Assembly: GCA_907163375.1 (NCBI GenBank)
Contig: CAJQUW010016138.1
Span: forward strand, 667,524-731,523
Direction of reading: 5' to 3'
Source: Prostheceraeus crozeri
Taxonomy: Eukaryota; Platyhelminthes; Polycladida; Euryleptidae
Length of the DNA: 64,000 bases
The notes beneath the pieces were generated by a model. It worked only from the letters and a program-made list of their open reading frames with translations. It was not told the DNA's origin and ran no database searches. Within the stretch, counting starts at the first letter, position 1, and each line of letters begins with the position of its first letter. Positions 21,770-59,961 of this stretch are shown piece by piece. Both the position numbers and the translations under genes were made by a program.

Positions 21770-22027
21770 TTTCTCATGAGGGTTTTGGTATCACGATGTA
21801 GCAGTGATCATTATGTAGAATCATCTCTTGAATGCGAATAAATACAATGCCGTCTCCCAAACTAATCACACGCAAAGAGTTGGATAGGATAGCGCGATAC
21901 AACCTTCGTAGTTGAACGCGATCTAGAGTTATCTGAAGTTCACGTTTCGTATCATGAAATGTGACACACCGACGCTTCCATGATCCATGGAACTATGCTG
22001 ATAATTTCCATATGATCATGATTTAAA
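21770..22027 (-). pseudogene. Small ORF upstream of the TBP-like gene (element A)
   Basis: It is equivalent to the N-terminal part of the ORF at 47455 in element B (ITL..., GDGIVFIRIQ, MILHNDHCYIVIPKP) but has stops at about residue 9 and after IPKPS. No family was recognised. Nucleotide conservation between A and B is high here, and the TATA box of the TBP-like gene falls inside its 3' end, so part of that conservation may be regulatory. Confidence 0.4.
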
Positions 22028-22029
22028 CC

Positions 22030-22670: not shown

Positions 22671-22850
22671 ATGTTAAACTTAGACTTGGTTTCAACCACT
22701 CAAGTCGTCAAAAACTTGAATGCGTTGTCTAATATTCAATTCATTCTGTACACAGATTCGTTTTACTTCACATCCAAAGTTGATGACTACCTAACACACG
22801 TGTTCACTCAGAATTTACACTTCACTGTTTGTGAAAAGACTGTCACATAA
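22671..22850 (+). CDS. Short unknown ORF, 59 residues, next to the right arm
   Basis: An ATG lies about 50 bp after a TTATAAAAC box (22618-22626), the same spacing as other genes of the element. The product begins MLNLDLVSTTQVVKNL and has hydrophobic, aromatic-rich strands. The ORF stops about 40 bp before the inverted arm begins, so it may be the stump of a longer gene cut by the arm duplication. It has no match in element B and no recognised family. Confidence 0.3.
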   Translation: MLNLDLVSTTQVVKNLNALSNIQFILYTDSFYFTSKVDDYLTHVFTQNLHFTVCEKTVT

Positions 22851-22890
22851 AACATTTTACACACTGCAGTCCGGATCTCAACTAAAGATA

Positions 22891-41956: not shown

Positions 41957-43090
41957 AGTAGTAACCCCATCCCAGACGCAAGGACAGTGCGGTGCAGTGA
42001 TGAGTCATCATGCTGACTCAGCCCCCCCCCCTCTGGCAGGAAGGTGAGGGAGAGGGTCAAGGATGTGATGGAGGAATGGGTCTGTGAGGAGAAAACGGGC
42101 CCCACCCCCCCTCTGGAAGGAAGGCAGGAGTTTTCCAGTTAGGAGTGGAATCTCGGAAGGGAGAAGGGGTGGAGTGGTAGAGTTGAAAAAGTCAGGTGTT
42201 GGAGGTTTTGGGATGAGAAAGGCTGGAATTCGTCAATAAGGAGGGTTTGGATTGGAAAGTGGAGTTCAGATGTGGAATCTACGTGAAATTTTGGGTTGGG
42301 AAGGACGGAAGGAGGAGTGAAGAGGCAAGGGGTGGAATCTTTGAAAACGTCAGAGTTGGAAAAGGTAGGTGTTGGATGTTTTGGGATGAGAAGGTCCATG
42401 TTTCGGGCAGAAGGAGACCTCGGATGGGAAAATGGAGTGCAGATTCGGAGTCTACGTGAAATTTTGGGTTAGGAAGGATGTTTCCAGCAAAATCGGAGAG
42501 AAAAAGTTCTGACCCCCCCCCTCTGCAACGATCTTCCAACTTTGGTTGTAGACATCGTAGAAAGTCGTGCAATAGCTCATTTGAAAGCTGAGAATGAGGA
42601 AAGTGAAGTGAAAACCTCAGTTTGGACTAATTTTCTTGGCTTGAGGGAGGAAAATGGCAGGAAACGTCAGAGTTGGAAAAGGCAGATGTTGGAGGTTTTG
42701 GGATGAGAAAGTCCATTTTTCGGGTGGAAGGAGTGCTCGGATGAGAAAATGGAGTGCAGATTCGGAGTCTACGTGAAATTTTGGGTTAGGAAGAATGTTT
42801 CCAGCAAAATCGGAGAGAAAAAGTTCTGACCCCCCCCCCCGGCAACAATCTTCCAACTTCGGTTGTAGACATCGTAGAAAGTCGTACAATAGCTCATTTG
42901 AAAGCTGGGAGTGAGACAAATTCAGTGGAAAACATGGCTTGTTCGTATCTGCCTTCGTTTAGAGGTGAGACGTTATTGAAAATTTAGGACCTTGGCGAAA
43001 AACGACAGAGCTAGAATGTTTATGAATATCGCTCTAGCGGGTGAAGCAAGCCTCGGACGGGAAAACAGAGACCAGATTTGGCATTAGCGT
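41957..43090. repeat. Element B left TIR, with an internal duplication
   Basis: It matches 59140-59961 in reverse. It is longer than the right TIR because a module containing AGGAAGRATGTTTCCAGCAAAATCGGAGAG occurs twice (about 42474 and 42785). C runs at 42022-42030, 42511-42519 and 42831-42840 are G-quadruplex candidates on the minus strand. Confidence 0.85.
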
Positions 43091-43146
43091 GCCATGTTAC
43101 ACGTGTATGTCATTCATGCTATGTCTCCGAAGTGAAAGGAAGAAAG

Positions 43147-43569
43147 ATGACAGAAGCAGTAAAGTTTACGAATGAATTTTGTTCACTACGTTTTCATCGA
43201 CAAAGTCTTCGTGGTGTGATTAGGGACTACATCATCTCCTTTCATCATGAAAAGGCAGACTTCGAATTTGCTATCGCTAAAGGTTACTTCGCTTTCCAAC
43301 AGCTCATGGACAGTTTGATGAATAAAGATGTGAAAGGACGATTAGTTGCAGAGATCGAATTTGAGAAAGTGACTGATGAACATGTAGGTGAACGTGTAGT
43401 GTTTCATTTTGCATCCTATTCTGCAGAGACGATACATGATCCCAAAGATTTCTATCAGCGACACATGGCAAAAATTGCATCTCGACTAGATTCATTTCAT
43501 GAGCATGGATCTAACTTACTCCTATGTCACATAAAACACATTCATATTCAACTCAATGTGTTAAACTAG
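43147..43569 (+). CDS. X-domain protein, element B copy 1
   Basis: The ORF is open from 43078, but the Met at 43147 (MTEAVKF) is chosen because homology to the other copies starts there. The 140-residue product has LRFHRQSLRGVIRDYIISF, VKGRLVAEIEFEKV, VFHFASYSAE, FYQRHMAKIASRLDSF and LLLCHIKHIHIQLNV, colinear with the copies at 12562-13014 and 45793-46152 and with part of pPolB. The frame is intact. Function unknown; the repeated use of this domain beside and inside the polymerase suggests a replication role. Confidence 0.75.
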   Translation: MTEAVKFTNEFCSLRFHRQSLRGVIRDYIISFHHEKADFEFAIAKGYFAFQQLMDSLMNKDVKGRLVAEIEFEKVTDEHVGERVVFHFASYSAETIHDPKDFYQRHMAKIASRLDSFHEHGSNLLLCHIKHIHIQLNVLN

Positions 43570-43707
43570 ATTTGACTACAAGATTTGGGAAAAGCATTCA
43601 TGAGTCAGACGTCCGCGTGCCTCCTTTTCCCTGCCGCAACGAAGTCAGGGGAGAAACGGAGGTCTCTGATTGGCTCTCATAGTGTCAAGTGTGGATTCGC
43701 AGGAGAC

Positions 43708-43715
43708 TATAAAAG
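43708..43715 (+). promoter_or_regulatory. TATA box for the 43.8-kb transcript
   Basis: TATAAAAG; the sequence after it resembles the other leaders of the family, with a donor-like CAAGTGAGTG at 43831-43840 giving a short non-coding first exon. Confidence 0.6.
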
Positions 43716-43842
43716 CAGACGTCTCCCCATTTTCTCTTCATTTCATTCTCTTGACTTGGAAAGCGTGTGTGACTTGCTGAAGCCATTCTCCCCTCTCAAC
43801 TTTGTCTGATCAATCCTGTTTGCAAATTTACAAGTGAGTGTC

Positions 43843-44073
43843 ATGACTGTCTGGCCTAAACCTTACCAGCATTTTAGAAGAGAGACGCAGGAGAGTGTGT
43901 GGCCGATGATTGTACAAGCATATTTTGTTGAACCATCGCCACCACCGCCTCCACCACCTAGACGCTTTACCTTTAAGTCTTTTAGGGAATTGAAACTCAA
44001 TTCGGGTCCTAAGCCCAAGACATTTAATTTACTGGACGATGACGAAGACTTAGACTTTGGTGATAAGCTTTAA
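43843..44073 (+). CDS. Small proline-rich acidic-tail protein
   Basis: 76 codons from the ATG at 43843. It has a WPKPYQHFRRE start, a run of prolines (PSPPPPPPPRR), RRFTFKSFRELKLN and an acidic end (LLDDDEDLDFGDKL). No family recognised. It starts just after a possible splice donor (43834), so it would be made from unspliced RNA, and its stop is followed 20 bp later by a histone-like hairpin (44094-44109). That fits two alternative products: unspliced/hairpin-ended (this ORF) or spliced to 44191 (beta-rich protein 1). Confidence 0.45.
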   Translation: MTVWPKPYQHFRRETQESVWPMIVQAYFVEPSPPPPPPPRRFTFKSFRELKLNSGPKPKTFNLLDDDEDLDFGDKL

Positions 44074-44093
44074 ATCATGTGAACGCCCCAAAA

Positions 44094-44112
44094 GGTCCTC
44101 TTAAGGGCCACC
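44094..44112 (+). terminator. Histone-type 3' hairpin candidate
   Basis: GGTCCT-CTTA-AGGGCC-ACC: a 6-bp stem with one G-U pair and a 4-base loop, preceded by CCCCAAAA and followed by ACC, as in replication-dependent histone mRNAs. It lies 21 bp after the stop at 44073. Confidence 0.5.
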
Positions 44113-44196
44113 TCATATGTCGCTGCTAAGCTAAGGATTTTCTTTTCTCTGATGATCATGAATGTACTTAGTGGTATTCTTTCGTTACAGACTGCC

Positions 44197-44882
44197 ATGG
44201 CCATGAATCCTACTCCTACTGCTGCATCACTGAATCCTCAACATCTTGAGCTGTTGAATCCGAAAATTGAAAAGGTAATTTACGGCTATCCTACCTACAA
44301 ACAACAAGTGCGCTACAACGGTGTTCGACTCTATCTTCAAACGCCGGCTGTATACTTACCAAAAGTGGATACGCAAGTAAATCGTTGCGGTCAAACCTGA
44401 GTATTCCTATTGATAACTGATTGCGTCAACAGCTTGACATTCTAGACGACGTTGTGAGGCAAAAGGCTCTTATTCCTACTGAACTATTAAAGTTGTGGCC
44501 AGAAAAGAAAACTTCTTATTATAAACCATTGTATCGCGGCACTCGCTGCTATGTTTTACAAAGCAAGTATTGTAAAGTCACTTCAGGAGTGACAGTTGAA
44601 CAGTCAGTTGAAACAGAATTGTCATCGCTAGGTGCAGGCTTTTATTCCTTTCATATTGAGGTACCTGCTGTTTATGTGGGACCTCATCAATCTGACGGTA
44701 ATTTGATTTCTCTCAATTTGCGCATTGCTCAAATTCATCATCAACCTGAGTTAACAGGACTTGATCACATTGAGAAAGTCATTGATTCTTGTGTCAAAGA
44801 GTGTCAAGAACCTGTCACTAAACCTAAACGTCGTCGTCGCACATCAAAGAAAGATAGTGCTACCACCAAAGAGAAATCTTAA
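44197..44882 (+). CDS. Beta-rich protein 1 (possible ssDNA-binding protein), 2 coding exons
   Basis: Exon starts after TTCGTTACAG (44190). Coding 44197-44376, GT-AG intron 44377-44432, then 44433-44882; the frame is kept across the junction. About 209 residues: N-terminal strands (KQQVRYNGVRLYLQTPAVYLP), middle strands (YKPLYRGTRCYVLQ), the signature LGAGFYSFHIEVPAVYVGP ... LISLNLRIAQI, and a basic tail (KPKRRRRTSKKD). Paralogous to the protein at 46728. Strand-rich form with a basic tail fits an OB-type single-strand DNA-binding protein, as expected beside a protein-primed polymerase, but this is inference. Confidence 0.65.
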
Positions 44883-44883
44883 G

Positions 44884-45033
44884 TATTGTAATCAGTTAGT
44901 ATGTAGTGAATGTGGAAAACGCGGCCTTGCGCGTTATGTTCAAATAAAACATTGTCATCATGTTGTATGTATCTTTTGTTATGTAAAGGACAGACATCCT
45001 TGTAAAGTTCCTGCTCAATGTATTATTTTGTAA
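44884..45033 (+). CDS. RING-like zinc-binding fragment
   Basis: The frame reads LVCSEC, 13 residues, CHHVVCIFC, then HPCKVPAQC. The C-x2-C ... C-x-H-x2-C-x2-C part matches the RING order; the last pair is spaced C-x5-C rather than C-x2-C. It follows directly after the stop of beta-rich protein 1 in another frame, so it may be an alternative last exon of that gene rather than an independent gene. If a true RING, it would be a ubiquitin ligase component. Confidence 0.4.
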   Translation, partial: YCNQLVCSECGKRGLARYVQIKHCHHVVCIFCYVKDRHPCKVPAQCIIL

Positions 45034-45088
45034 TGAAGTCTTTTTGATAATGTAGGTTGTCATCTTCATAGACAGTGAGAGAACACCC

Positions 45089-45619
45089 ATGCAGGAATTG
45101 AGTGCTATTGCAATGAGAGAAAGTGATCAAACTGTTGCTAGTGTATATCATAGATTTGCCCACTGTCCTCCACACAAAGACGAATGGTCACGACGTCATG
45201 TGCATGGACTTGATCCTTCTATTTTGATTCATATTGGATTTGTAAATGAAACGTATTTGATAAGTGATTTCAAACGGTGGCTGTCAGGTTTTCATATTGT
45301 TAAAATATTAGGAAATGATTCTGAACGAGAAGCAACAACACTTCAGTTGCACATTGATAATCTATATTTACCATGTTGGGTAGATCGTGTAAGAGAAGAC
45401 TATCATATGCATTGTGATCAAAAGAAGTTTAGAGATGAAATGATTTTTGACATGGCAATATGTTTCGTTGAGAGACATCACCTGTACAGACCACCATCCC
45501 ATTGTAATACTAGAAATAAAGCTACCTACATTGCAAAATTCTCTTCACGCTGGCATTGTAGTCTCTATGACGTTTATGAACTGTATCGATATTATTGTCA
45601 ACAGCATGGGTCTATGTAA
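45089..45619 (+). CDS. Unknown conserved-looking protein, 176 residues
   Basis: Intact ORF beginning MQELSAIAMRESDQ. Features: GLDPSILIHIGFVNETYLISD, KILGNDSE, LYLPCWVDRV, and a His/Cys-rich C-terminal half ending in SLYDVYELYRYYCQQHG. Well-formed alternation of hydrophobic strands and helices and normal composition suggest a real enzyme-like domain. I do not recognise the family. The element A arm duplication removed it, so no second copy exists here for comparison. An AATAAA-type signal (GAATAAAC) follows at about 45700. Confidence 0.6.
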   Translation: MQELSAIAMRESDQTVASVYHRFAHCPPHKDEWSRRHVHGLDPSILIHIGFVNETYLISDFKRWLSGFHIVKILGNDSEREATTLQLHIDNLYLPCWVDRVREDYHMHCDQKKFRDEMIFDMAICFVERHHLYRPPSHCNTRNKATYIAKFSSRWHCSLYDVYELYRYYCQQHGSM

Positions 45620-45792
45620 AACATGTTTTTATTCTTTGTGAATGAATGATGATCATTGTATGAAGTGTATTCTGTACTTGTGAATTTTGTCTGGTGTTGA
45701 ATAAACTTACAGTGGAACATGATTGTTATTTCTGTTTTATTCATAGTGGAAGTCATTGAAGCAATGTGAAATCTATAGTTACAACGTTTATG

Positions 45793-46152
45793 ATGGCGCA
45801 TCGTACCTTAAGTAACCACATGTGTCATTTGACACTTGATCAACAAGGATTCGATGGATTTTTACAAGATTGGAAACTTACATTTAAAATGAAGATGAAT
45901 GATATGAAAGTAGTGCTCACTGAAAGCCTTCCTCTCTTCAAAAGATTGATGGAGAGTTTACAACCTCAAGATGTGAAGGGTAGACTCGTTGCTTATATAG
46001 AATTGAAAGATTTGCAAAAACCACTTCGTTTTGGATCTTATTGCACAGAATGGATTACTCTTAGTGATCAATTTTATGGTCGTCATATGGAGAAAATTAT
46101 GGAGAGACTGGAAGAGCCGTGGAAAGAAATGCATACGTTGTTAAACATATAA
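45793..46152 (+). CDS. X-domain protein, element B copy 2
   Basis: The ORF starts at the ATG at 45793 or earlier in frame at 45766. It has LDQQGFDGFLQDWKLTF, VKGRLVAYIEL, RFGSYCTEW, FYGRHMEKIMERLEEPW and a shortened C-terminus (MHTLLNI) lacking the last strand. It shares VKGRLVA with copy 1, its closest relative here. Intact frame. GCAATAAAG at about 46216 may be its polyadenylation signal. Confidence 0.7.
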   Translation: MAHRTLSNHMCHLTLDQQGFDGFLQDWKLTFKMKMNDMKVVLTESLPLFKRLMESLQPQDVKGRLVAYIELKDLQKPLRFGSYCTEWITLSDQFYGRHMEKIMERLEEPWKEMHTLLNI

Positions 46153-46259
46153 TGATTCAACTGAGTGTGTTTACATTCACGACTTTGTTTGATGCGCGAC
46201 ACATTGTGTAGATGCAATAAAGATTTCTTTTCACTGAGTATTTTGTAATGGTGTATAGA

Positions 46260-46525
46260 GCAACATGAGTCATTGCGCTTTGTGCATTACTATCAGGCTC
46301 TTTGTTAGATAAGTGAATGCGTCTTTGTTCGAGAAAAGGGGCGTGTCACAACATGAGTCATTGCGCTTTGTGCATTACTATCAGGCTCTTTGTTAGATAA
46401 ATGAATGCGTCTTTGTTCGAGAAAAGGGGCGTGTCACAACATGAGTCATTGCGCTTTGTGCATTACTATCAGGCTCTTTGTTAGATAAATGAATGCGTCT
46501 TTGTTCGCTAGAAGGGGCCTGTCAC
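46260..46525. repeat. Tandem repeat, about 88-bp unit, 3 copies
   Basis: CAACATGAGTCATTGCGCTTTGTGCATTACTATCAGGCTCTTTG recurs at about 46261, 46350 and 46437, nearly identical, ending with GGGGCGTGTCA. It lies just upstream of the promoter of beta-rich protein 2 and could hold repeated regulatory sites (TGAGTCA is an AP-1-like word). Confidence 0.8.
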
Positions 46526-46675
46526 TCAAGTCTTTGTGAGGACTAGAACGACTTTGTAAGAGGGAAGGTTTCCACCCACGCAGTCAAAAGTTCATGTGCG
46601 ATAACTCTTTGTCACATAACAAAGACAGGGAAAACGAGAAAAGGGAAACGTATGTGATTGAGAGCTAGGGCTGCT

Positions 46676-46682
46676 TATAAAG
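46676..46682 (+). promoter_or_regulatory. TATA box of beta-rich protein 2
   Basis: TATAAAG lies 52 bp before the ATG at 46728. An upstream ATG at 46698 would be only 22 bp from the box, probably before the transcription start, which is why the later start is preferred. Confidence 0.6.
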
Positions 46683-46727
46683 CGGACGACTGAGCTCATG
46701 GCAATCATTTTCGTCCTTGCGCTAACC

Positions 46728-47294
46728 ATGCAGTTGCTCGAAGCCATCAACTCCTCTGCTCTCGCACTGGGTACACTGAACTCCCTTACTTTAGCATCGG
46801 GTAAAAATGCTTTCAATCAAAAGATAACTCATCATGGAGAAGCCGTGACCATAAAAACTCCAAGTCATCGGATAGATTATCTGAAGGTTATGTCAACAAA
46901 GTATGGACTGGCCGTGTGTGTGCCGTTAGACTATTGGACACGGTTACAATTCAATACTCTTGAAACAGTCCTGAAAGAAAATCTCACCATTCCCAAAGAA
47001 ATTGTTCGACACAATGGGAAGCGGCCACAAGTTCCCATCATGGAAAGACGATACATGTATGTTCATATGGATAGACACTGTTTCATCATCTTTGAAAAGG
47101 AGGGCAGCGAATTCGACTTACTCAATTGCAAACCACTCCCCATATTGGGAAAAGGATTCTACTCCTTGGAAATTAAAATTCAAACCATCTACATGGGTCC
47201 GCGCAGGGACGGAAAGTTGTTTACGTTGAATCTCTATCTTGTCTCCATCACCTTTAAAAATGATGTCCATGTTGATGATGATCAACTACAGTAA
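46728..47294 (+). CDS. Beta-rich protein 2, paralogue of the 44197 gene
   Basis: About 188 residues from the ATG at 46728 (MQLLEAINSSALALGTLN). Strand-rich middle (GLAVCVPLDYWTRLQFNTLE), YMYVHMDRHCFIIF, and the signature LGKGFYSLEIKIQTIYMGP ... LFTLNLYLVSI shared with beta-rich protein 1 (LG.GFYS..I....VY.GP...G.L..LNL....I). It lacks the basic tail and ends in an acidic VHVDDDQLQ. The apparent signal peptide of the longer ORF comes from a start that the TATA position argues against. A hairpin lies 30 bp after the stop. Possible single-strand DNA-binding protein. Confidence 0.65.
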   Translation: MQLLEAINSSALALGTLNSLTLASGKNAFNQKITHHGEAVTIKTPSHRIDYLKVMSTKYGLAVCVPLDYWTRLQFNTLETVLKENLTIPKEIVRHNGKRPQVPIMERRYMYVHMDRHCFIIFEKEGSEFDLLNCKPLPILGKGFYSLEIKIQTIYMGPRRDGKLFTLNLYLVSITFKNDVHVDDDQLQ

Positions 47295-47323
47295 CACTCT
47301 CCACACACTGAGAACGCACCATC

Positions 47324-47366
47324 GGTCTTTGAGACCACGGCCTAACGGCCACCGTATCAAGAAAGA
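47324..47366 (+). terminator. Histone-type 3' end candidate: hairpins plus CAAGAAAGA
   Basis: GGTCT-TTG-AGACC hairpin (47324-47336), a second GGCC-TAAC-GGCC hairpin with ACC after it, and CAAGAAAGA at 47358-47366. CAAGAAAGA is the classic histone downstream element of sea urchin genes, to which U7 RNA pairs. The cluster begins about 30 bp after the stop at 47294. Confidence 0.45.
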
Positions 47367-47454
47367 AAATGTACACTCACCATGCCACACATGAACATGA
47401 CTCTCTCTCTCTCCTTCTTTCTTAGGCATACCCTTCTTCACTCAGGTTTTAATC

Positions 47455-47745
47455 ATGTGGAAATTGTCAGCATGGCTCCAAGTATCATGGAAAAGTCAGT
47501 GTGTTACATTTCATGATACGAAACGTCAACTTCAGATAACTCTAGAACGCTTTCATCTACGAAGGTTACATCGCGCTATCCTATCCCACTCTTGCCGTGT
47601 CATTAACGTAGGAGACGGCATTGTATTTATTCGCATTCAACAGATGATTCTACATAATGATCACTGCTACATCGTTATTCCAAAACCCTCATGGGAAAAG
47701 TATAAAAGGGAAGTTCACTACATCCTCATGTATTTTGTGAGTCAT
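47455..47745 (+). CDS. Small unknown ORF before the TBP-like gene
   Basis: MWKLSAWLQVSWKS starts about 97 residues of strand-rich sequence (ITLERFHLRRLHRAIL, GDGIVFIRIQ, HCYIVIPKP). The frame stays open over the TBP-like gene, but the part beyond about 47745 is taken as chance, being proline/serine-rich and out of frame with that gene. In element A the equivalent is broken. The TBP-gene TATA box lies within it. No family recognised. Confidence 0.35.
47701..47708 (+). promoter_or_regulatory. TATA box of the TBP-like gene
   Basis: TATAAAAG lies 43 bp before the ATG at 47744 and is conserved in element A (21760-21767, reverse). Confidence 0.65.
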
Positions 47746-48127
47746 GCTCCCCATCCGCATCATCAACGCCATGCGCGAAATGAATCTCAGAAGAGACATC
47801 GATTTAGAACAGTTGCACGCCCATCTTCCCGATTCAGTGTATCATCGCGGTCGTCCGCAAATGTTGGTCATTCGCATGAGCAACGGTCGAAATCTTCAAA
47901 TCTTTCGCTGCGGCAAAATCCAAGTCCTAGGAAACCTTTCTCATTTCGTGATGCAGTCCATGTGTTACGAAGTCGTCCAGAAAATGCTAGCACTCATGCC
48001 TCATCTACGCCTCAACCCCCAGACATTGAAGAACATAGTAGTGTCTGTTCAATTGACGATGTTAGTGAATCTAGCCAACATTAAAACCAGTAAAATTGAA
48101 GATGTTAGTGAATCTAGCCAACATTAA
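47744..48127 (+). CDS. TBP-like protein, first half (element B)
   Basis: Nearly identical to the element A copy (21341-21724): MLPIRIINAMREMNL, VYHRGRPQMLVIRM, NLQIFRCGKIQVLGNLS. This is the first repeat of a TBP saddle, including one of the two intercalating Phe positions (IF before the CGK turn); the other is replaced. The same 43-bp duplication (first copy 48058-48100, second 48101 onward) takes the frame into a stop after the linker. Confidence 0.8.
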   Translation: MLPIRIINAMREMNLRRDIDLEQLHAHLPDSVYHRGRPQMLVIRMSNGRNLQIFRCGKIQVLGNLSHFVMQSMCYEVVQKMLALMPHLRLNPQTLKNIVVSVQLTMLVNLANIKTSKIEDVSESSQH

Positions 48128-48326
48128 AACCAGTGATCATTGTATATTTTATCAAACTGAACTCTTTCCTGCTGCTCTGATTCGGAAGTGGCATCCTGTA
48201 CATATTGCAGTGTTTCACAACTGACATTGTATCATGACTGGTTTACGTGATATCAGTAAAGTAGCTGACATTGTTAAATCTTTAATGCGTTATCTGTATG
48301 AGTCACAGTTAATAGAATCGTGTTAA
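48102..48326 (+). pseudogene. TBP-like protein, second half (element B), one stop
   Basis: It starts with the ATG created in the second copy of the duplication (MLVNLANIKTS) and continues QTELFPAALIRKWHP, HIAVFHN, then a TGA where element A has Gly, and CIMTG. The change is a single base (GGA to TGA), so this half is a recent pseudogene; in element A it is open. Confidence 0.75.
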
Positions 48327-48349
48327 TCACATGATGTGTTTTGAATGAG

Positions 48350-48790
48350 TCATCACAATGAACTATCGCCCACACACTTGTCAGTGAAAAGGTCATCAAC
48401 AAGGTTCTTCGCTTTATGATGAGTCAGCGCCATTTATAGACATGAAATGATGTCCATACACTTGTCGGTGAAAAGGTCATCAACAAGGTTCATCACTTTA
48501 TGATGAGTCAGTGCTATTTATAGACATGAAATGATATCCATACACTTGTCGGTAAAAAGGTCACGCTGTCTGACGTGAGGCGCCATCGCTTTGTCTGATA
48601 AATAACGCCCACACACACACACATGTCGGTGAAAAGGTCACGCTGTCTGACGTGAGGCGCCATCGATGTTGAATGACACGCCCACACACGTGTCAGTGAA
48701 AAGGTTGAACAAGATTGATTAGATTCGTATGACTCGCGCCTTACCACCTCATGAGTCAGAGCTATTTATAGACATGAGTCAGCAAAGTGG
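48350..48790. promoter_or_regulatory. Intergenic block with GTCGGTGAAAAGGTCA repeats (element B)
   Basis: Mirror of 20760-21120 in element A: TTGTCGGTGAAAAGGTCAT and GGTCACGCTGTCTGACGTGAGGCGCC recur two to five times, interleaved with ATTTATAGACATGA. There is no coding frame. Its placement between the TBP-like gene and the polymerase 3' end is the same in both copies. Confidence 0.4.
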
Positions 48791-48849
48791 TTGATTTTTC
48801 CCAAGCCGAAGAAATTGTCATGATGCTACATTCGTTGGTGAGGATGTTC

Positions 48850-49160
48850 ACTTACAAACTCTAACATCGTTTTGACTTTATTTTATACTTTACCTATCTT
48901 GCAAATAGTGAAATACTTATGACTTCATTTTATATTTCACCTATCTTACAAACAGCGACATGGGTATAACTTTATTTCTAACTTTACAATCATCAACTTT
49001 ATTTCTAACTTTACAAACGTCAACTTTATTTCTAACTTTACAAACAGTGAAGTGATTCTAACTTCATTTATATTTCACCTATCTTACAAACAGCGACATG
49101 GTGATAACTTTATTTCTAACTTACAATCATCAACTTTATTTCTAACCCTACCCATCTTAC
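48850..49160. repeat. Short version of the AT-rich array (element B)
   Basis: About two units of the array seen at 18830-20700, inverted (CAACTTTATTTCTAACTTTACAAACG; TTCACCTATCTTACAAACAGCGACATGG). Confidence 0.75.
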
Positions 49161-49554
49161 AAAATGATTAAAACATTTGCTTCTGTCTAATGAGTGAGAA
49201 TCCCATCTTTATGTCAAAAGGAAAACAACACAGTATGTACATGATATGTTATTCATCAACACAACCGATTTTCATCACAGCCACATGCAGTTAATACTGA
49301 TGGTAGCAGAAAACAAAGTTTTTATGGCTCACATCACCGGAGAAAACAAAGTCACTCATGTACAGGGAGAAAATAAAGTCACTCATGTGCAGGGAGAAAA
49401 CAAAGTCAGGAAAAACCAGTTGATATGTAAGTCATGATATGAAGTGATTAGGAGTTGGACGCATGTTCCAAGGCACTCACTCACAACATCCCATAGAAAA
49501 CGCCATGGAGTAAAAAGCAAAACATCAACCACAATAGAGAGGAAGCATTCATCA

Positions 49555-52500
49555 TCAGACATCGCCGGACGGAGGAGGAGAAAGTCTCTGTCTCTTGGGT
49601 GGAGGTAGATGAGTGTCTGGATGGCCGTACGGTAATGAGTGGTTAGGACTCATCCAGCATCGCTTGTCTTCCCAAGCTGAGAGACCTCGTTTCCTAAACA
49701 TCGTTGTTCTGACTTGATGCGACTGAGATTTTAAAATGGTCATTTCTACTTTTTTAATTTTAAGTGAATCTAGGGCATCTTGATAGTCCCTATGTGTCAT
49801 TTTTCTAACGATTGACTTTGAGATGCCTTTCGCCCGTTTTATAGAAAGCTCTGAGGATTTTAGCTTCATGGAATACATCTTGGGACGAAGCAAGATCATC
49901 TCCTCTATCTGTTTGCCGGCACACTCATCCTTGAAGCAGCCAAGCTTCGCTTTATTTGAGGTAGAGTAAAGCGGATGGTCAGTGGGATAGTTGGAACTAT
50001 CAAACTTGGGTGCTAAATATTTTAAAATGTCTTCCTGCTTGACTTGGCTAGTGGTTGTCAAAGCCAGGAAGAAGCTGTCTGTATCACCTCCTACTAATTC
50101 CACAAGTTGGAGAAGTGGACATGTCTTAAAAGTGTGGTAAAATAACTTGTACATTTCTAACTTGGAGTGATCCAAGACAGCTTGACCGACATAAATGGGC
50201 ATACAAAGTTCTACTTTAGATTTTAACATTTTAAAACCAGTGATGTCTTCGGAAATGACATCATGGTGGCAAAACAACGGCGAGCGACATAACTTGATAC
50301 TCGCTTCCGGATCAGTCACTAAACGATAGTCCATGCGTTTTCTTACATCCTCCATGGTTTTACCAAAGAGGGCATTATTCTTAAATTTAAAGAAGTCCTT
50401 TTCGAAAGGATTCGTGGATTCAGCCCGTTTCCTACTATCAAATTCTGTATACGGTCTTAGAAAGGGCTTCTATCTAAACTGGATTGCGCAATGGACTTTG
50501 TCAAGTTGCATCCCCATATCTAGATAAAATTTGAGGATGGAATAGTGCACGATATAATGCTGCTTGTTCAATTGGGTGAGCAACAACTACCTAGTGGGTT
50601 TACATTTTAAGTCATTTTCGCCTCACATTTCTTATTGTGTTCTTCCATAAAGGGAGAGAACATATCTGGACTGACTATGCCAGATTCGGGTGCGAGAGGA
50701 AAATCAATGGTCCTATTCTTGATACAGTCTGGATAGATGAGGTCGACTTCAAATAAAAACCTATGTCGGCCTCATCTCCCAGTGCCGTAATGTGTGCTGG
50801 ATTGGAGAAGTGTTTAATTTCATGGGGCTCTACCCATTGGAAGTCAGACTGTGGCAAAGGCTTGGAGAGTGCACTCCAATACAAATTATTTTGGTCTATG
50901 TACATTAAATGCGTGGTCAATCCTATGTCTTGGGTGCTGTTGACAACATGTTTGTTGACAAATGTCAAGCCACCCCTAATACCACGTTCAAATAACGTAT
51001 ACATTTCTGCATCTTGCAGTAAATGCATTCTCTCTTTCGTCATCTTGAAGGCTGACTGATAGGACAGACCCGGCAGACTAACAAAATGGACGTGGTCTAA
51101 GACGTCCTGTTCTAATGTAACTTTCCTAAAAGTCTCAAACACGTCAGAAAACAGATAGACGTCTAATTTTAAGTAGGCAAGCATGTAGTCACCAAAAGTG
51201 CGACACCTAACTTCCAACCATGCTTGCTCTGCATGCCTATAATCATCCAGCGAACAGTCCTCACCCGTCAAATCATTTTTAAATTTATCGATGGACGGAA
51301 GGGATGTTTCTTTCAATGTATCCATTGAACTAAAATAACTATAAGGAAACACCCCTTTCCGTCGTATCAGACTATCACTTATGTTGGGATAGTCTTTCTT
51401 TAAATGTTGAGTGAGGGGAAGTGTTTCTAAATTATTAGCCAACGCTGCTAAGGAAGAAGACATAAATTGAAACTATCTAGAAACTTTATGTGATAGAAGA
51501 CAGGCTTCCCCTCAGCGGTTTTGTCGACTTGTACTTTGGCAGTGATGCACATAAATTTTTCCTTACTTTGTGCAATCACTTTAGAAGAGCAGGATTTCAT
51601 TTTACCGAATCCATGGCGAATGATGATGTGAGCATCATAACATCTAAAGTTATGAAAGATGACGGGCAGCGTTCGCCTTTTGGGCCTAAGATTCATATTA
51701 CATTTACTGCAGAAGGCAGACCTAAATTTACCAATGAGATGGCAATGGTCCCTCACTTTCTTATGTTGCTGATCATCAAAGGATGAACAGCAGCGGGGAC
51801 ATTCCGTGGTCCTATCAAATTGAAGTTTATCGGGTTCTGTGAAGCACATGGGTTTCCTAGTGAGGTCCGTTTCATACCGTTGATGAAAACGGGCTTTCCT
51901 ATCTAAAAAGTTGAGGAAGTTTTCAACACACTCCTCGCCTTGCCACACATGCATTTTATTTTGGTTCCTATAATATGGATGCCAAACTTCATAGCAGGCA
52001 ATGGCTGCTGGCTCATGACTTAGGTCTTCTTGTTCAATATAATATTCAATGTCCGCATAGATGGTACATATGGGACTGAGCTCATTGCCGTTTTCCTCAT
52101 ACCTATAAAATTTATCTTTGGGCATGACTTCCATTTGAAGTTTACCCCGAGAGCACCACTCGTAATGCTCTTCAAAAATGCTTTTGATGTGAAACGCCGT
52201 GTGCAGCGATCACAGTAATAAAAATTATCCCTATAGGTTGCTTGATGATGGTATAACTTTGCAATTTTAGGAATGCCACAATAATGCCATTCTGGGTGGT
52301 TGTCACTATACACTAGGAGAAGATTGACAACCCGGTCGAAGTTACTTTGGCGATTATTATAGCTAACCCCCTTCAGACCTTTTTCCCAGAGATGGACGAC
52401 AATCTTAATATTATTCAATTTTTTAAATTGGGCGATGCCTTTAAAATCTAATGTGTTGACATCTAACCCGTCAAACTTAAGCTCATTCTCCCATTCACGA

Positions 52501-54467
52501 TAGTGAGTGATTCGTTCACGATGCACCCTTATATCATTGTAGTGAAGAATGGAGAGGACGGCATACTTGAGACACTGGGACTGACACGCTACATTGACGA
52601 CAGCCTTTTTGCCAGCCAGTGCTTTGGGGAGGGTGAAACAACCGCTCCCTTGTAAATTTTCTAAAAGATTGATTTTGATGTCTACCTTCTCTATCCCATC
52701 AAAGACCAGACCGCTGTCTCTTTCATTAAATTTATTTAAGTTTCTGACGAGATAGGTCGCATGTCTCTCTATCCTCTCGTTTACATCACCTATCAAATCA
52801 GCAGCACAGGAGGCTATCCTAATGGTCACAGTGGACTCTACTTCTCCCGTGCTACTGTCTACCTTATTGAAACGAGCAGTGAGATAGAACATGCCCTTAA
52901 GTAAAAATCTATCTAATCTCGTCAACATTTGATGAATTAAGCCTATATTATTCATCAAGAAAGGATGAATGTCCTGCACAGCTTCAGAGCTTTCTAACTC
53001 ATAATCGCGAACGAGCCTCTCAAGGGAAAACTTGCTCAGCCTTAGAGTGACAGTGTTGTCAGTGTAAGGCTCAGTGGGATGAGTGTGACAGAGTGTGTGC
53101 GAAGAAAGAACAAACTCTGTAAGAAAGGTCTTCTGACACGAAGAACAGGAAAAGCCAACGTGCGATGAAGGATGCTTCCTACCTGATGACGTTGGTGGTT
53201 GCCTGACACTGCCACAGGAACCGCCTTCGATGTGGACTCGCAAGTTGGCGCTGTTGTATAACGTACGTCCACAACCTTCACATTTGGGCCGTTGAGGGAT
53301 GGGTCGGCGTGTCTTCTCCAGTTCTCCTTTCGCTTTTGGGCAGCGAGAATGCCGGTGTCGTCGAAGGCAGAATAGCTTTGCGAAAACCTACCCGCAGTCC
53401 GTACAGCTGAGTTGTGGAGCTGTAGGTCCTTCTCTCTCCCTCAACCTTCCTCCTCGAGTGCAATCTCCTCTCCCACTATCTCTAGCTCCTCCTGCTCCAA
53501 CAATCTCTCCACAGACTTGATGGAGAGGAGAGGGAGGTCGGCCGCTGCAGGTGGTGGTGATGCAGGGATGATGACGGGACGGGAGGGAACGTCGCCGTCC
53601 AGGAGGTAGACCGCCAGATCTGTTGAGAAAAGAGATTGGTAACATGATCATCATTTCAAGTTTGAAGTCTTATCCCCCTATTTCCCAATCACGAGTAGTT
53701 ACTATCTAATGAATTAATCTCCGGCAGCAAGGATGGACGCAGAGGAGGCAGGAGAGGGACACGAGCCGAGGGTGGAAGAGTCCTGGGCTTCGCTGTCGGA
53801 GGGATGTGGTGACGAGGAGCAGGCACTGGCACAGGGACTAGCACAGGGACTGGCAAAGGGACTGGCACAGGGACTGGCGCAGGGACTGGCACAGGGACTG
53901 ACACAAGGAGCGGAGCAGGCGATGGAGGTGGGGCGATGACAATGCCCGAGAGAGGGGTCGCACCTTGGGAGGAGGTAGATGGGTGAAAGGTAGGGCCGGA
54001 AATTCAGCTTCGAATCTCCGCCTCGCGGCTTCCTCCCACTTCTTCTTCGCCATATCTGTAGAGAGGAAAGAGAAATTAGATTAGAGGCTGCGGAGATAAT
54101 AATGATAGAGTGTAAGCTATACGGATAAAGAAGTGCTAAAACATGACATTCCAACTCGCATAGGTGAGGATACTTACACTTGCCAAGTCGCACGTAAGCT
54201 TGCCCGATTGCTCCTTGGGGGACGGGTTCCCCGTTACGAATACATTCATGCACTGAAAAAGAATGACAGCAAAGATGAGCAGAGGTAAAATTTGGATTCG
54301 GTTTAAACATGAACAAAATAAGGGAAGGGCACTTGATTTTAATGAGGATGTCTACCCTAATGATGTTAGTAATAGAGTCAATCTTGATACAAATACTTAC
54401 ATTGCTCGATGGTAGCCTTCTCCATCTCAGCAGCAATGCGATAGTTCTCAATTTTTGTCAATTCCAT
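49555..54467 (-). pseudogene. Protein-primed DNA polymerase B, element B copy (4 exons, disrupted)
   Basis: Exons on the minus strand: 54467-54401, 54252-54178, 54055-53703 and 53619-49555, matching element A in phase and, for the first two, in length. Fingers, X-domain-like and peptidase-like regions lie at 53600-52170; exonuclease and endonuclease VII-like parts (VRDHCHLIGKF, closer to consensus than in A) at 52134-51448; palm (DQNNLYWSALS) near 50880; motif B region and motif C GGDTDSFF (about 50068-50091) at 50355-49555. At least four frame breaks (near 53430, 53240, 52160, 51460 and 50600) disable it. Unlike A, the catalytic motif C is intact and the basic C-terminal tail (to 49555) is in frame. 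Confidence 0.9.
53820..53905. repeat. 12-bp coding repeat in pPolB exon 3 (element B)
   Basis: GGGACTGGCACA repeats about seven times, adding Pro-Val dipeptides to the proline-rich linker (PVPVP type). Element A has a shorter, non-repetitive PPPPAPVPAPVF stretch here, so the expansion is specific to B. Confidence 0.7.
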
Positions 54468-55088
54468 GGTAGATAGTCGATTGCAGATTACGCTAGCAGA
54501 TTTCAATCACTGAAACGGAAAGATGAGAATCGTTTCATTTGCCTAGTCAACGTTTATCATGGGAACAATCATTGGAGTGACATCTAATGAATTACATTTC
54601 ACTCTACTCCATATCATAAAGACTAACCTTTGTCGAATGGCTAAAGTACTCTGACCTGGCGAGAGAAAGCATCACGTTGAGTATGAAGTCGAACACCTAA
54701 CATGAGCAACGGCTCAGAGGTTTCGGTCTAACAAACGACGAACAACCCGTGCAACGCAATCCCTTTACGGCAGTACCCGCCGTCCCGAAGGAACGCTCGA
54801 GCAAGGGAGGTATTACAGCGATGATATGTTTTATGAGCAGAAGATGTGATAGCAAGAGACTACATGAAAACAACCTGATAGCAGGAGCTCACCGACACTC
54901 ACCTTGTGAAAGATAGATGTGAAGAGCAGAGCTGGTGCACTGCCTTTTATAAGATTTTCCTAAGCGGTGAATGGATGAGACCTCTCGTCCAATCACAGAC
55001 GAGCTGGAGTTCCCGATGTGCGCACACATTTGTAACAAGTTATTGAAATCGTGTTGGGCAAAAATGTTGTTTAGCAATAGACTCAACC

Positions 55089-55516
55089 ATGGCACCTGAA
55101 GTCAATACATTGAAACATGATGATTGCACGATTCGTTTTCATCAAGAGTGCTTCGGAGGCTTAATACAAGATTACATCCTTGAGTTTCAAAGGGAGGAGA
55201 CAGAATTGGAAGCATATTTAGACTACACACGAGAAATATTTACGGAGTTGATATCTTATTTCAAAGACAGTCTCATCAAGGCTCATTTAATTGCACATGT
55301 CAAGTAGCGGAAAGTGTTGATTTTCAATTTCCTTCCTACGGACAAGAATATGTTACTGATGCTTCTGAGTTTTATACACGACATCTGCGGAAGATTATTT
55401 CTCGGATGGACAACCTTCATGGTTACGACAATCATTTGCTTCTGAATAAAATAAACCATATTTTCATTGCTATTAGTAAAGTGGGTTTCAATGATGTTAA
55501 ATCAAAGACCAAATAA
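55089..55516 (+). pseudogene. X-domain protein, element B copy 3, deleted
   Basis: The first 72 codons are almost identical to the element A copy (12562-13014). A deletion of about 25-28 bp after IAHV shifts the frame and brings a stop (55305-55307); the rest of the domain (FYTRHLRKIISRMDN) is still legible in another frame to about 55516. Confidence 0.75.
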
Positions 55517-55889
55517 AGTATTTTTTCATGACACTTGTGTTGTGCTAAACTTTTTAATGCTGTGGTGAACACTGTTTTCATATAACATTCTAAACTCTCA
55601 GTCTCACTGCAGTACAGAACTGCTTTTAGTAAACCTGATGAAGCTAATTTAACAGTCATGAAGTTTGAATTTTCTAATAGGTAAAAATTTGACAACTGTC
55701 TCCAATAAAACTTTCTAACACTGAAAGTAAGTTACAAGACAATCTACACTGTGCAGTAAAACCTTCTAAAACTTTCTAGTGCTGTGGTGAGTTCGGTCAG
55801 TCATACAACGTCAATGATCAAACTCTATTTTCGCAAACGTGCGTCGAGGTAAATTATTTGACTACACTGACGCTTACATTTTATGACAT

Positions 55890-56635
55890 GTGTGTTTCAT
55901 AAAACGTCATGATCAAAGTTTTCCAACTATACATCAACCTGTGTTGCAGTATAAACTTTTGTACAAACCATGATACACTTTCTGACTAGACTTATGAATA
56001 AACGTCATGATCAAACTTTCTAACTATACATCAACCTGTGTTGCAGTATAAACTTTTGTACAAACCATGATACACTTTCTGACTAGACTTATGAATAAAC
56101 GTCATGATCAAACTTACTAATTATACATCAACCTGTGTTGCAGTATAAACGTTTGTACAAGCCATGATACACTTTCTGACTAGACTTATGAATAAACGTC
56201 ATGATCAAACTTTCTAACTATACATCAACCTGTGTTGCAGTATAAACTTTTGTACAAGCCATGATACACTTTCTGACTAGACTTATGAATAAACGTCATG
56301 ATCAAACTTTCTAACTATACATCAACCTGTGTTGCAGTATAAACTTTTGTACAAACCATGATACACTTTCTGACTAGACTTATGAATAAACGTCATGATC
56401 AAACTTTCTAACTATACATCAACCTGTGTTGCAGTATAAACTTTTGTACAAACCATGATACACTTTCTGACTAGACTTATGAATAAACGTCATGATCAAA
56501 CTTTCTAACTCTACATTAACCTGTGCTGCACTATAAACGTTTGTACAAACCATGATATACTTTCTGACTAGACTTATGAATAAACGTCATGAACAAACTT
56601 TTCTAACTATACATTAACCTGTGCTGCAGTGAAAC
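55890..56635. repeat. 97-bp tandem array, about 8 units
   Basis: Units start CGTCATGATCAAACTTTCTAACTATACATCAACCTGTG and run through GATACACTTTCTGACTAGACTTATGAATAAA, at about 55906, 56003, 56100, 56197, 56294, 56391, 56488 and 56585. They are nearly identical, showing recent expansion. Older, fewer copies are in the element A arms (11830-12250; 23170-23600). Confidence 0.85.
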
Positions 56636-57981
56636 CTTTGTACAACACTGACAAGAGCTTGTTCACTAGCAAAGAGAGAAGTCTGTGATGTGTTGCGTGT
56701 GGCGCATGAATGTCCTCCCTTCATTCCATTCATCATTTTTCTTCCCCTCTGCATTCCATATCCGAAGATATGTATCTGGCTTGGGACCACTTTAGCTGCA
56801 TTAGACGGTTGGCCCTTAAAAGAGCCCATGGGTCGTTCTCCGTCCAAAGACACTCTCACTTCTGCAAAAACTCTGAAAGAAAAAGAATATGAGATTAGAG
56901 GCGGCAAGGAAATGATCATGTTGAAGTAACTTAGTGGCAACTTCTTCCGAACTATTCGGACGACGAAGTCCTCCAGCTCTCCAGTGATGTTCAACTTCAT
57001 ATGTAGGCACCGGACTCCGTCGCCCTCATAGCATGTCTGTGTCGAATTGGGGTCGTCAGTGATTGTGGGGATGTCACAGATGTTGTTTTCAAAGAGGGGA
57101 AGATGGACTTCATACACTCTTCTTTTTCTACTCTTCAAACACTCATGCAGTCGCTCAACTTCACCTGCGAACCTCTTATTTATGTCCTTCACTTCCTCCG
57201 TCTCCTTCACCACGCTTCGCATCCGCTCTATCTCTTCATCCTTCCTCGACAAACTCGCTTGCAAACTCTCCACCAAACCTGCCTTCCTCATCAACTCGCT
57301 CCTTTCCGCCATCCATTCCTTCTCCTTCTTTCTCATACTCTCTAACTCTTCCCTCGTTGCCCTATACCCCTCAACCTTCGCCACCTGCTCTTCATTCTCC
57401 TTCAAAACTTTTCTATTTACACTTTCCAAACCCATCACACGATCCTTCAACCTAACAAATGCCTCCGTATCACACCCCTCTTCCCGCCGTGGCGATGACG
57501 CTGACATCGGTTTACCCACTTCCTCACCCTCCCCCTCCAGATCACCGATATCCCCAAACAAATCCTTAATCACCTTATCCAAATCAACATCATCCTTCTT
57601 CTTCATTTCCGCTCTCAACTCAACTTCCTCACTCGAACTCTCATCACTCGCCTTCGTCACCACTTTCTCCCCAACCACGCCCTCAATCGTTGCCACCGCC
57701 TTCCTCACCTCTTCCATTTCCAACAACTCTCCCTCAAACCACGTCTTGAACCCCTTCTCTCCGATAGTCCCACTCTCACACTGCACATGCGCCTTGATAA
57801 ATTCTGCCTCATCCCCCATCACACATACCCGACAAGACACACACAACCTCAACATCACTTTCCTCTCATGGCCCATCGTCCCCTCTTTAGCTTTTAAATG
57901 CTTCTTGAGCTCACTCCCTCTGGCAATCTCGCCGCAACTGCATTTGCCCACTAGCATCTTGGCGTTGCTCGGTTTCGTCAT
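56614..57981 (-). CDS. Zinc-finger/coiled-coil protein (element B)
   Basis: The ATG at 57981 follows a leader intron (acceptor TCTTTACAG). N-terminus: KCSCGEIARGSELKKH and CVSCRVCVMGDEAEFIKAHVQC, a paired Cys/His finger region. Then an acidic linker (DESSSEEVEL) and a long heptad coiled coil (about residues 170-290, EEQVAKVEGYRATREELES type). C-terminal domain: TCYEGDGVRCLHMKLN. The open frame runs to 56614, but an acceptor-like TTTTTCTTTCAG near 56880 and the homologue at 61655 suggest the coding part ends near 56930. Family unknown. The opposite strand is also open but lacks motifs. Confidence 0.65.
   Translation of the reverse strand: MTKPSNAKMLVGKCSCGEIARGSELKKHLKAKEGTMGHERKVMLRLCVSCRVCVMGDEAEFIKAHVQCESGTIGEKGFKTWFEGELLEMEEVRKAVATIEGVVGEKVVTKASDESSSEEVELRAEMKKKDDVDLDKVIKDLFGDIGDLEGEGEEVGKPMSASSPRREEGCDTEAFVRLKDRVMGLESVNRKVLKENEEQVAKVEGYRATREELESMRKKEKEWMAERSELMRKAGLVESLQASLSRKDEEIERMRSVVKETEEVKDINKRFAGEVERLHECLKSRKRRVYEVHLPLFENNICDIPTITDDPNSTQTCYEGDGVRCLHMKLNITGELEDFVVRIVRKKLPLSYFNMIISLPPLISYSFSFRVFAEVRVSLDGERPMGSFKGQPSNAAKVVPSQIHIFGYGMQRGRKMMNGMKGGHSCATRNTSQTSLFASEQALVSVVQRFHCSTG
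56811..56826 (-). terminator. Histone-type hairpin in the coiled-coil gene 3' region (element B)
   Basis: On the minus strand: GAACGACCCATG, then GGCTCT-TTTA-AGGGCC and AACC. It corresponds in position to 62814-62827 in element C (GAACGAACCATCA before a related hairpin). Confidence 0.5.
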
Positions 57982-58230
57982 GATAATTCTGTAAAGATAG
58001 AGTAAAATTTGATGGCAAGTGTTTATAGGATACTACTTGCTGATATGCATTGAAAGACTAAGTCATCAAACATTTGACAGCAAACGTTGGAATAAAATCG
58101 TCAACCAAAGTTAAAGAGTATGATTCCTAGCTTTATCCTAAATCCCAAAGTTTGATAGCAAACCTTGTCAGAGCACTCAACGTTCGTCTTGTAACTTGAA
58201 ACAGGAGTGAAGACTAGAGAAAAGTCGCGG

Positions 58231-58238
58231 TTTATATA
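58231..58238 (-). promoter_or_regulatory. TATA box of the coiled-coil gene (element B)
   Basis: GGTATATAAACCGCG on the minus strand matches TATATAAACCGCG at 33401 in element C. A donor-like GTTGAGTGC follows about 55 bp later. Confidence 0.6.
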
Positions 58239-58269
58239 CCCAGCGAGCACAAACCTATGATTCAGACCT

Positions 58270-59140
58270 TCCTTATTTGGACATGCTTTTAACTTGACAA
58301 CAGCAGTTTTACTATGTATGGGCATCGCGAGTCACCGTGCTTTCTGTTACCAACTCCCAACACAAAGACGGATTCCCCTATGACGTGAAAAGGTTTGACG
58401 TCAATGCTTGCAGTAACCATCCCATTTTTACCAAGTTACAATGACAAACGATAGACGTTGCCAACCCTGAGTTACTGAGGCTAGACGAAGAAGGCCTGAT
58501 AGTAAGCCAGCAAGCGTTTGGGTGTTAAGCTCTTGAATCCGTTACAGGCATTACTCAGAGGGGATCTTATCCCAACTCCAAGGCCTCGACCCACAAATCC
58601 AACTTCGAGCGAACAGAGCGTGCGTCATATCACTGTGTTGGTATCCGGGCCCCAGTTTTGACATGAAAACCGGTGGAGTTATTTACAAGAGGAAACGACC
58701 CAAGTCACAGAGACTCATAAACGACTGCTTTTTATTCAAAAACTTTAATTATTGTCATAAAATATGAATTTAAATTTTTCAGTATTTTAGTACTACTCAT
58801 AAAACGTTTATAAGTAGTCTGTCACCTACAGCACAGCAAGAGCTGTCGAATGTTTTTTGAATCAAGTCTAAAGGACTTGTAGAAGCAAAGTTATAGCCGT
58901 TTGAAGATTTCGGCCTACTATCATCAAATGGTCAGTCATGCTATACTGACTAACCTATAAGTCTGACACCTTAGCTGATATCAGCAATGGAAAGTCAGAA
59001 GTCCGATATCGGAACTCAAGAGAAACGACTTACCTGCAGTCAGTTTCTCAACTTAGTGAAATTCCTCTCACGATCCCGTTCTTATATACCCTGTGAATAT
59101 GCAATCGATAAGAGGGGGGGGTCAAAACATTATTTGTCAC
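58270..59140. other. Element B right-arm leader region without a gene
   Basis: It is colinear (reverse) with 32440-33380 of element C. It includes a GCTGATATCAGC palindrome motif near 58975 and no long ORF with motif support. Confidence 0.5.
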
Positions 59141-59961
59141 AAATTTGACGCTGATTCTAAATCTGGTCTCTGTTTTCCCGTCCGAGGCTTGCTTCACCCA
59201 CTAGAGCGATTTTCATAAACATTCTAACTGTGTCGTTTTTCGCCAAGGTCCCAAATTTTCAATAACGTCTCACCTCTAAACGAAGGCAGATACGAACAAG
59301 CCATGTTTTCCACTGAATTTGTCTCACTCCCAGCTTTCAAATGAGCTATTGTACGACTTTCTACGATGTCTACAACCAAAGTTGGAAGATCGTTGCAGAG
59401 GGGGGGGTCAGAACTTTTTCTCTCCGATTTTGCTGGAAACATCCTTCCTAACCCAAAATTTCACGTAGACTCCGAATCTGCACTCCATTTTCCCATCCGA
59501 GGTCTCCTTCTGCCCGAAACATGGACCTTCTCATCCCAAAACATCCAACACCTACCTTTTCCAACTCTGACGTTTTCAAAGATTCCACCCCTTGCCTCTT
59601 CACTCCTCCTTCCGTCCTTCCCAACCCAAAATTTCACGTAGATTCCACATCTGAACTCCACTTTCCAATCCAAACCCTCCTTCATGACGAATTCCAGCCT
59701 TTCTCATCCCAAAACCTCCAACACCTGACTTTTTCAACTCTACCACTCCACCCCTTCTCCCTTCCGAGATTCCACTCCTAACTGGAAAACTCCTGCCTTC
59801 CTTCCCGAGGGGGGGTGGGGACCCGTTTTCTCCTAACGGACCCATTCCTCCATCACATCCTTGACCCTCTCCCTCACCTTCCTGCCAGAGGGGGGGCTGA
59901 GTCAGCATGATGACTCATCACTGCACCGCACTGTCCTTGCGTCTGGGATGGGGTTACTACT
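59140..59961. repeat. Element B right TIR
   Basis: Reverse complement of the left TIR with a single module, ending TTACTACT before TATGTT. An outer-promoter-like TATATA lies just inside at about 59082-59089 on the minus strand. Confidence 0.85.

Follow-up and report, generated by a model that had tools for sequence, protein, structure and literature searches.

The stretch analysed here, hereafter the window, comprises 64,000 nucleotides of contig CAJQUW010016138.1 from the polyclad flatworm Prostheceraeus crozeri (assembly GCA_907163375.1, positions 667,524 to 731,523). It holds two mobile elements of the Polinton type, A and B, each with a gene that is, by its profile match and by the predicted fold of an intact relative, a gene for a TATA-binding protein (TBP). 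We lean towards an explanation in which this TBP is ancient, specific to Polintons and carried by them, and runs a switch between early and late genes of the complete elements. The copies in the window lie as follows.

47744..48127, plus strand: TBP gene of element B, first repeat, a clean 127-residue frame (47744-48124), PF00352 at E 6.3e-12
48102..48326, plus strand: TBP gene of element B, second repeat, in a different frame and with one in-frame stop
21341..21724, minus strand: TBP gene of element A, first repeat, 127 residues (21724-21344), PF00352 at E 1.4e-11
21122..21267, minus strand: TBP gene of element A, part of the second repeat, in a different frame and without an internal stop

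A preliminary description of the window had proposed that a mobile element encodes a TBP-like saddle. That proposal is borne out: the first repeats of both copies match the Pfam TBP profile, and the two-repeat plan and the sequence blocks named in that description are present in both, although neither copy is one open frame. In copy B the whole first repeat falls within the 127-residue frame and scores 45.6 bits against a cut-off of 22.9, about twice that value. Its second repeat resembles by eye the second half of an intact relative, P0001, with the stop inside the VFHN.HCIMTG block, and its second-half pieces (40 and 33 residues) gave no Pfam match when scanned alone. The 47-residue second-half piece of copy A, the only one of the three to match, reaches PF00352 at E 0.016, under the cut-off. 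Since the second repeat is out of frame in both copies, and is interrupted by a stop in B, both window copies are disabled.

When the first half was used as query, a database search returned three intact proteins of 160-179 residues (94%, 59% and 50% identical), and all three, like both window first halves, score above the curated cut-off of PF00352. P0001 (179 residues, 94% identical over 91% of the query) matches PF00352 at E 3.9e-22 in two stretches, and its predicted structure is a complete two-repeat TBP saddle with a pLDDT of 95.7. Compared with the PDB, this model gave 44 matches at E<=0.001, every one of them a TBP, while its top fold match in BFVD is the TBP of Heterosigma akashiwo virus (E 1.5e-10). 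Profile and predicted fold, both of which had been proposed as checks, thus both return TBP. This is a large family, with 324 public relatives picked up at E<=0.01 by a profile of the three proteins, and PF00352 is present in all of the best 120. In the 2.05 Gb genome itself, the best 150 of 8,338 candidates from a search with the window protein were scored, most with an open frame of about 180 residues; the best 150 of 10,982 candidates from a PF00352 search were likewise scored, all above the cut-off, and only scored candidates are counted as copies. Among these latter 150, the host TBP gene (C9306) accounts for two and a TRF2-like gene (C3829) for two more, the others having been inspected in part.

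Residues of the DNA-binding face were counted, in yeast TBP numbering, in 122 proteins, namely the best 120 of the 324 relatives and two from this genome. On the C-terminal face, N159, V161, F190, P191 and F207 are kept in every protein and T215 in 120. In the N-terminal half F116 is kept throughout and N69 in 108 (with 12 gaps); Gln replaces both L114 and V122 in all 122, T124 has become Leu, Met or Phe in all 122, F99 is Pro in 119 and V71 is Met in 108. The family therefore has three of the four intercalating phenylalanines of TBP (F116, F190 and F207), the number that had been suggested from the window copies. The TFIIB stirrup is retained, with E186 in 117, E188 in 121 and L189 in 109 of the proteins. 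Judged by these residues, the element TBP looks like one near-ordinary half joined to one rewritten half.

The carriers of the gene are the two elements below.

41957..59961, minus strand: element B, Polinton-type, 18.0 kb, reverse of A, with AGTAGTAACCCC.. ends on both strands and the duplication TATGTT
9143..25834, plus strand: element A, same family as B, 16.7 kb, with inverted terminal repeats and the duplication ATCTCG

The target duplications lie at 41951-41956 and 59962-59967 for B and at 9137-9142 and 25835-25840 for A; AGTAGTAAYCCCATCCCAGACG forms the start and end of both elements, and the terminal repeats of B (41957-43090 and 59961-59148) are 94-97% identical. The assignment to a Polinton-type element is borne out by 5'-AG ends, 6-bp target duplications and inverted terminal repeats, which are found in A, in B and in a third element of the same genome, C12605.

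About 19.5 kb was examined around TBP genes of other types in this genome, and in C12605, C13101 and C13735 the TBP gene stands alongside a Polinton gene set: pPolB, two longer open reading frames (ORFs), TBP, protease, capsid protein, small capsid-like protein, integrase, a 230-residue ORF and an ATPase-like protein. We call these elements complete with respect to their gene set and not to the intactness of every gene, the pPolB of C12605 being in pieces. C12605, the one among the three whose ends were mapped, spans 327275-348587 (21.3 kb) and has a perfect terminal repeat of 143 bp, together with ends AGTAGAAGG and the duplication TGTGAA. An rve integrase occurs in all three elements (Pfam rve 1.4e-13, chromodomain 1.5e-7). 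The Ulp1/C48 protease is above the cut-off in C12605 (E 7.1e-5) and under it in C13101 (0.0011), and the ATPase-like protein matches Pox_A32 weakly, under the cut-off in both cases (E 0.07 and 0.021). The pPolB of a complete relative carries an Endonuclease VII-like motif (PF02945, E 8e-7) and polymerase motifs recognised by eye, with no DNA_pol_B_2 match among those listed. The two longer ORFs (at most 516 and 465 residues, shorter in broken copies) are capsid-type by eye alone, and those scanned gave no Pfam match.

For the capsid protein, 408 relatives were retrieved at E<=0.001. A model of P0127, which is 72% identical to the capsid protein of C12605, has a pLDDT of 84.2 and, at E<=0.001, 103 matches in BFVD. 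Of the 50 that were shown, many bear the name capsid protein, which places the model with the double-jelly-roll major capsid proteins (MCP). The TBP gene adjoins this structural block. On public contigs of at least 5 kb, 8 of 27 listed TBP relatives share a contig with one of the listed capsid relatives, where shifted lengths predict 0.15, identity of contig being judged from exactly equal length. The window elements hold pPolB, TBP and several small genes, and the ORFs scanned, a part of the total, include no integrase, ATPase, protease or capsid gene; we propose that they are reduced relatives without late genes, in which the TBP gene has decayed. It should also be noted that no RNA polymerase gene was seen in the TBP-bearing elements, and that the P0127 model matches R9XLG5, an uncharacterised protein of Cotesia sesamiae Mombasa bracovirus (27% identical, E 3.7e-28), perhaps a Polinton relic in a bracovirus.

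The preliminary description had also placed TATA boxes before the genes of the element. This holds for the TBP gene, where TATAAAAG (once TATAAAAAG) stands 43-47 nt upstream of the start in three subfamilies with 41-54% identity between their proteins. In this strict form it does not hold for the rest: within 75 nt upstream, TATAWAWR precedes TBP in all three gene sets and no other gene there. The window site is the following.

47701..47708, plus strand: TATAAAAG, 43 nt before the TBP start of B; the counterpart in A is at 21767, minus strand

A second box marks other genes. The top enriched upstream 6-mers are AAGCAA in C12605 and ATGCAA in C13101, each before 7 of 14 genes, and in random placements with the best 6-mer chosen, 0 of 1000 matched the observed result in each subfamily (the C13101 set being without MCP). 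In 13 of the 14 box genes the AWGCAA site lies on the sense strand at -29 to -47 from the start codon; cap516 has a site only at -10. Boxes of this type include TTAAGCAA and TATGCAAA. The longer form YWAWGCAA precedes 4 of 14 and 6 of 15 genes, counts equalled by 2 of 5000 and 0 of 5000 shuffles, with one antisense match each. The genes divide as follows.

With box, C12605: cap514, cap461, MCP, small capsid-like gene, INT, ORF234, basic-protein gene
With box, C13101: cap516, second capsid-type gene, ORF208, small capsid-like gene, ATPase, basic-protein gene, ORF1
Without box, C12605: ORF199, TBP, PRO, ATPase, second basic-protein gene, ORF1, ORF2
Without box, C13101: pPolB, ORF118, TBP, PRO, INT, ORF230, ORF3

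In the switch that we lean towards, the host TBP would read the canonical box early and transcribe the TBP gene of the element. Later, the element TBP would bind the AWGCAA box: its canonical C-terminal half would recognise TWAW on the 5' side, and the GCAA part would fall to the rewritten N-terminal half, with Gln, Gln and Leu for Leu114, Val122 and Thr124, while the kept stirrup would bring host TFIIB and RNA polymerase II to the capsid, packaging and integrase genes. A box of TWAW followed by GCAA fits the element TBP because the C-terminal half is near-ordinary and the N-terminal half is changed. With more reserve, we suggest that a whole Polinton lineage, animal and environmental, may run this switch between early and late genes with a private TBP whose N-terminal half was re-engineered from A/T to GCAA reading. 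We infer, as the preliminary description had suggested, that the element TBP would control RNA polymerase II initiation.

Several points weigh against the switch. The fit between box and protein is a correlation, and both the binding of the late box and the recruitment of RNA polymerase II are predicted. The roles of the TBP residues counted above are those that we assume from published TBP structures, and we likewise take it that C-terminal TBP sits on the 5' half of a box, N-terminal TBP on the 3' half. The C-terminal half is not wholly canonical, with L205 changed to Ala in 112 of the 122 proteins. Half of the genes lack the box, PRO and TBP in both subfamilies, and for several gene types it is confined to a single subfamily, C12605 for INT and MCP (MCP being absent from the C13101 set) and C13101 for ATPase and ORF1. 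No more than two independent subfamilies have the box: in the window-type element it precedes 0 of 8 genes, and in the decayed C7976 none of the 11 listed ORFs. This decayed fourth subfamily (C7976, L114) also has no TATAWA within 120 nt of the assigned TBP start. In C12605 the looser TATAWA stands before PRO (-52) and the small capsid-like gene (-51), and in window B at 46676, 22 nt before ORF5. The box was discovered and counted in the same data, a circularity that the random-placement control covers. A host factor could read it instead, given that CTATGCAAAT is like a POU octamer site and TTxxGCAA like a C/EBP site.

Selection bears on the same question. Across 10 sequences (45 pairs, 7 of them saturated), dN/dS is 0.18-0.49 between subfamilies and 0.10-0.61 within them, values that are biased down by the choice of sequences by protein score and include 4 partial frames among the 10; the substitutions look like the product of purifying selection. 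Window-type elements without late genes seem to keep TBP as well (dN/dS 0.17-0.37, 6 pairs), and this retention is not explained by the late-gene model alone.

As to origin, a 52-row tree places 28 element-type TBPs (26 database proteins and two from this genome) in one clade (support 100/100, branch length 2.54 changes per site) that is separate from host TBP, a host TRF2-like fragment, three other eukaryotic, 11 archaeal and eight IMG/VR viral TBPs, so that the phylogenetic check proposed at the outset yields a separate clade. Rows were hand-picked for spread, without near-duplicates or stop-bearing rows, and took in 26 of 28 A3 proteins, 8 of 11 viral translations (from 12 viral loci) and 9 of 15 archaeal ones (from 80 archaeal loci), with two archaeal PDB chains added; the long rows (three viral, TRF2) are unsurely placed. 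The host fragment (L122 74-427, G000:C3829), which we take to be TRF2/TLF-like by motif, falls outside the element clade and is 17-23% identical to its members.

Other explanations account for parts of these data. In the one closest to the preliminary description, the protein would be a stand-in with ordinary TATA specificity, extra TBP that serves canonical TATA boxes where the host's own is limiting by tissue or stage. The kept TBP fold and most of the C-terminal face would suit this, as would the canonical box before the TBP gene in three subfamilies, which makes self-activation possible, and the looser TATAWA before two more C12605 genes and ORF5. We nevertheless regard a stand-in as unlikely, given that the strict box precedes no other gene in the three sets and that on the N-terminal DNA face 119-122 of the 122 proteins depart from yeast TBP at positions 99, 114, 122 and 124. 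A protein that bends DNA when the element replicates, is packaged or chooses its target, and has no part in transcription, is quite unlikely: reduced elements without late genes do seem to keep TBP beside pPolB, but the TFIIB surface is kept as well and the gene adjoins the structural block in complete Polintons.

That stirrup, conserved while the DNA face changed, is also what a decoy would need, one that has no promoter of its own and acts by sequestering the host's TFIIB, or other partners, so that host transcription falls. We hold such a decoy to be very unlikely, since the conserved new DNA-face residues suggest a new specificity and not a loss, and a positioned box stands before other genes. 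Recent capture of a host TBP or TRF2 gene, or chance resemblance, has nothing in its favour among these data and deserves practically no credence. The four members compared are only 20-25% identical to host TBP, the clade of 100/100 with 26 database relatives contradicts capture, and the profile E-values and the predicted fold speak against chance.

The remaining genes of the window elements are these.

49555..53243, minus strand: pPolB of B, in several frames, polymerase motifs by eye
14373-18264, plus strand: pPolB of A, in several frames, polymerase motifs by eye
46698..47294, plus strand: ORF5, an element gene also in L011, no Pfam match
44421..45619, plus strand: ORF2 and ORF3, element genes that by eye have similar ORFs in complete Polintons
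43078..43569, plus strand: ORF1, by eye like a pPolB-associated N-terminal domain, similar ORF in complete Polintons

The pPolB of a window-type copy has the Endonuclease VII-like motif at E 7e-5, just under the cut-off of PF02945, and ORF2 and ORF3 gave no Pfam match above cut-off. The stand-alone small genes ORF1 (43078-43569) and ORF7 (12562-13014) are alike and also resemble the pPolB N-terminal region by eye. In element A, a tandem-like satellite (18866-20748, spacings of 126, 349 and 323 nt) between TBP and pPolB occupies roughly the place of the structural genes in complete relatives; in element B, a 97-bp tandem array (55902-56645) has matches in both terminal repeats of A. Two ORFs related by eye, 56614-57981 (no Pfam match) and 61655-62143, both have a coiled-coil-like region and, close to the start, a CSCGEI motif; the ORF at 61655-62143 may belong to a fragment of a third element at the end of the window. 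Other mobile DNA, recognised by eye at 5924-8905, 33612-34991 and 37711-40553, comprises a long interspersed nuclear element, a PIF/Harbinger-type nuclease ORF and an inverted Tc1/mariner-like pair. At L011 (G000:C5529:268400-275400), a different, AT-rich adintovirus-like element lies beside or inside a window-type Polinton; it has a pPolB by eye, a Pox_A32-type ATPase (E 1.9e-5) and more ORFs, and a relaxed box pattern before 1 of 4 genes.

To our knowledge, TBP lies outside the known Polinton gene set. The preliminary description had known of none in such an element, and in the open literature, the scope of our search, with most subscription papers and all preprints beyond it, no paper describing one was found in the text available. 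The terms 'TATA', 'transcription factor' and 'TFIID' are absent from the available text of two Polinton-like-virus papers (PMC10120064, PMC7805220), the latter of which, in the part available, considers Polintons the ancestors of most eukaryotic double-stranded DNA viruses. Excerpts from other papers describe TBP genes of an alga that lie in elements putatively derived from mirusviruses (PMC10675990), a TBP of the white spot syndrome virus type (PMC4506587) and TBPs of giant viruses (PMC12085832, PMC11464507).

A Polinton TBP means that core initiation factors can travel in small virus-like elements though no RNA polymerase gene was seen in them, and a private TBP provides a simple means of keeping early and late genes apart in the nucleus. 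With one DNA face near-canonical and the other rewritten, it is a natural, ready test of how TBP reads DNA; if our explanation is true, it would be the first transposon-carried general transcription factor with altered core-promoter specificity.

Taken together, the element protein shares with the TBPs of eukaryotes and archaea the saddle fold, the two repeats, most of the C-terminal DNA face and the TFIIB stirrup; it differs in its identity to cellular TBPs (20-28% for the four members compared), its rewritten N-terminal DNA face and its own clade. TRF2/TLF of animals is a TBP paralogue with changed promoter choice, and the likeness lies in that paralogue character, although the host TRF2-like fragment stands outside the clade. 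Large DNA viruses (nucleocytoplasmic large DNA viruses; white spot syndrome virus and its relatives) similarly have a TBP of their own in a mobile or viral genome, but identity is 6-17% in the 50 BFVD fold matches shown, and the eight IMG/VR viral TBPs, three on long branches, fall outside the Polinton clade in a tree without the TBP of white spot syndrome virus. With Polintons/Mavericks, including adintovirus-like animal elements, the elements described here share 6-bp duplications, 5'-AG ends, inverted repeats, pPolB (by eye), a chromodomain integrase, a Ulp1-type protease, a weakly matched ATPase-like protein and a capsid protein, and they differ in carrying a TBP gene.
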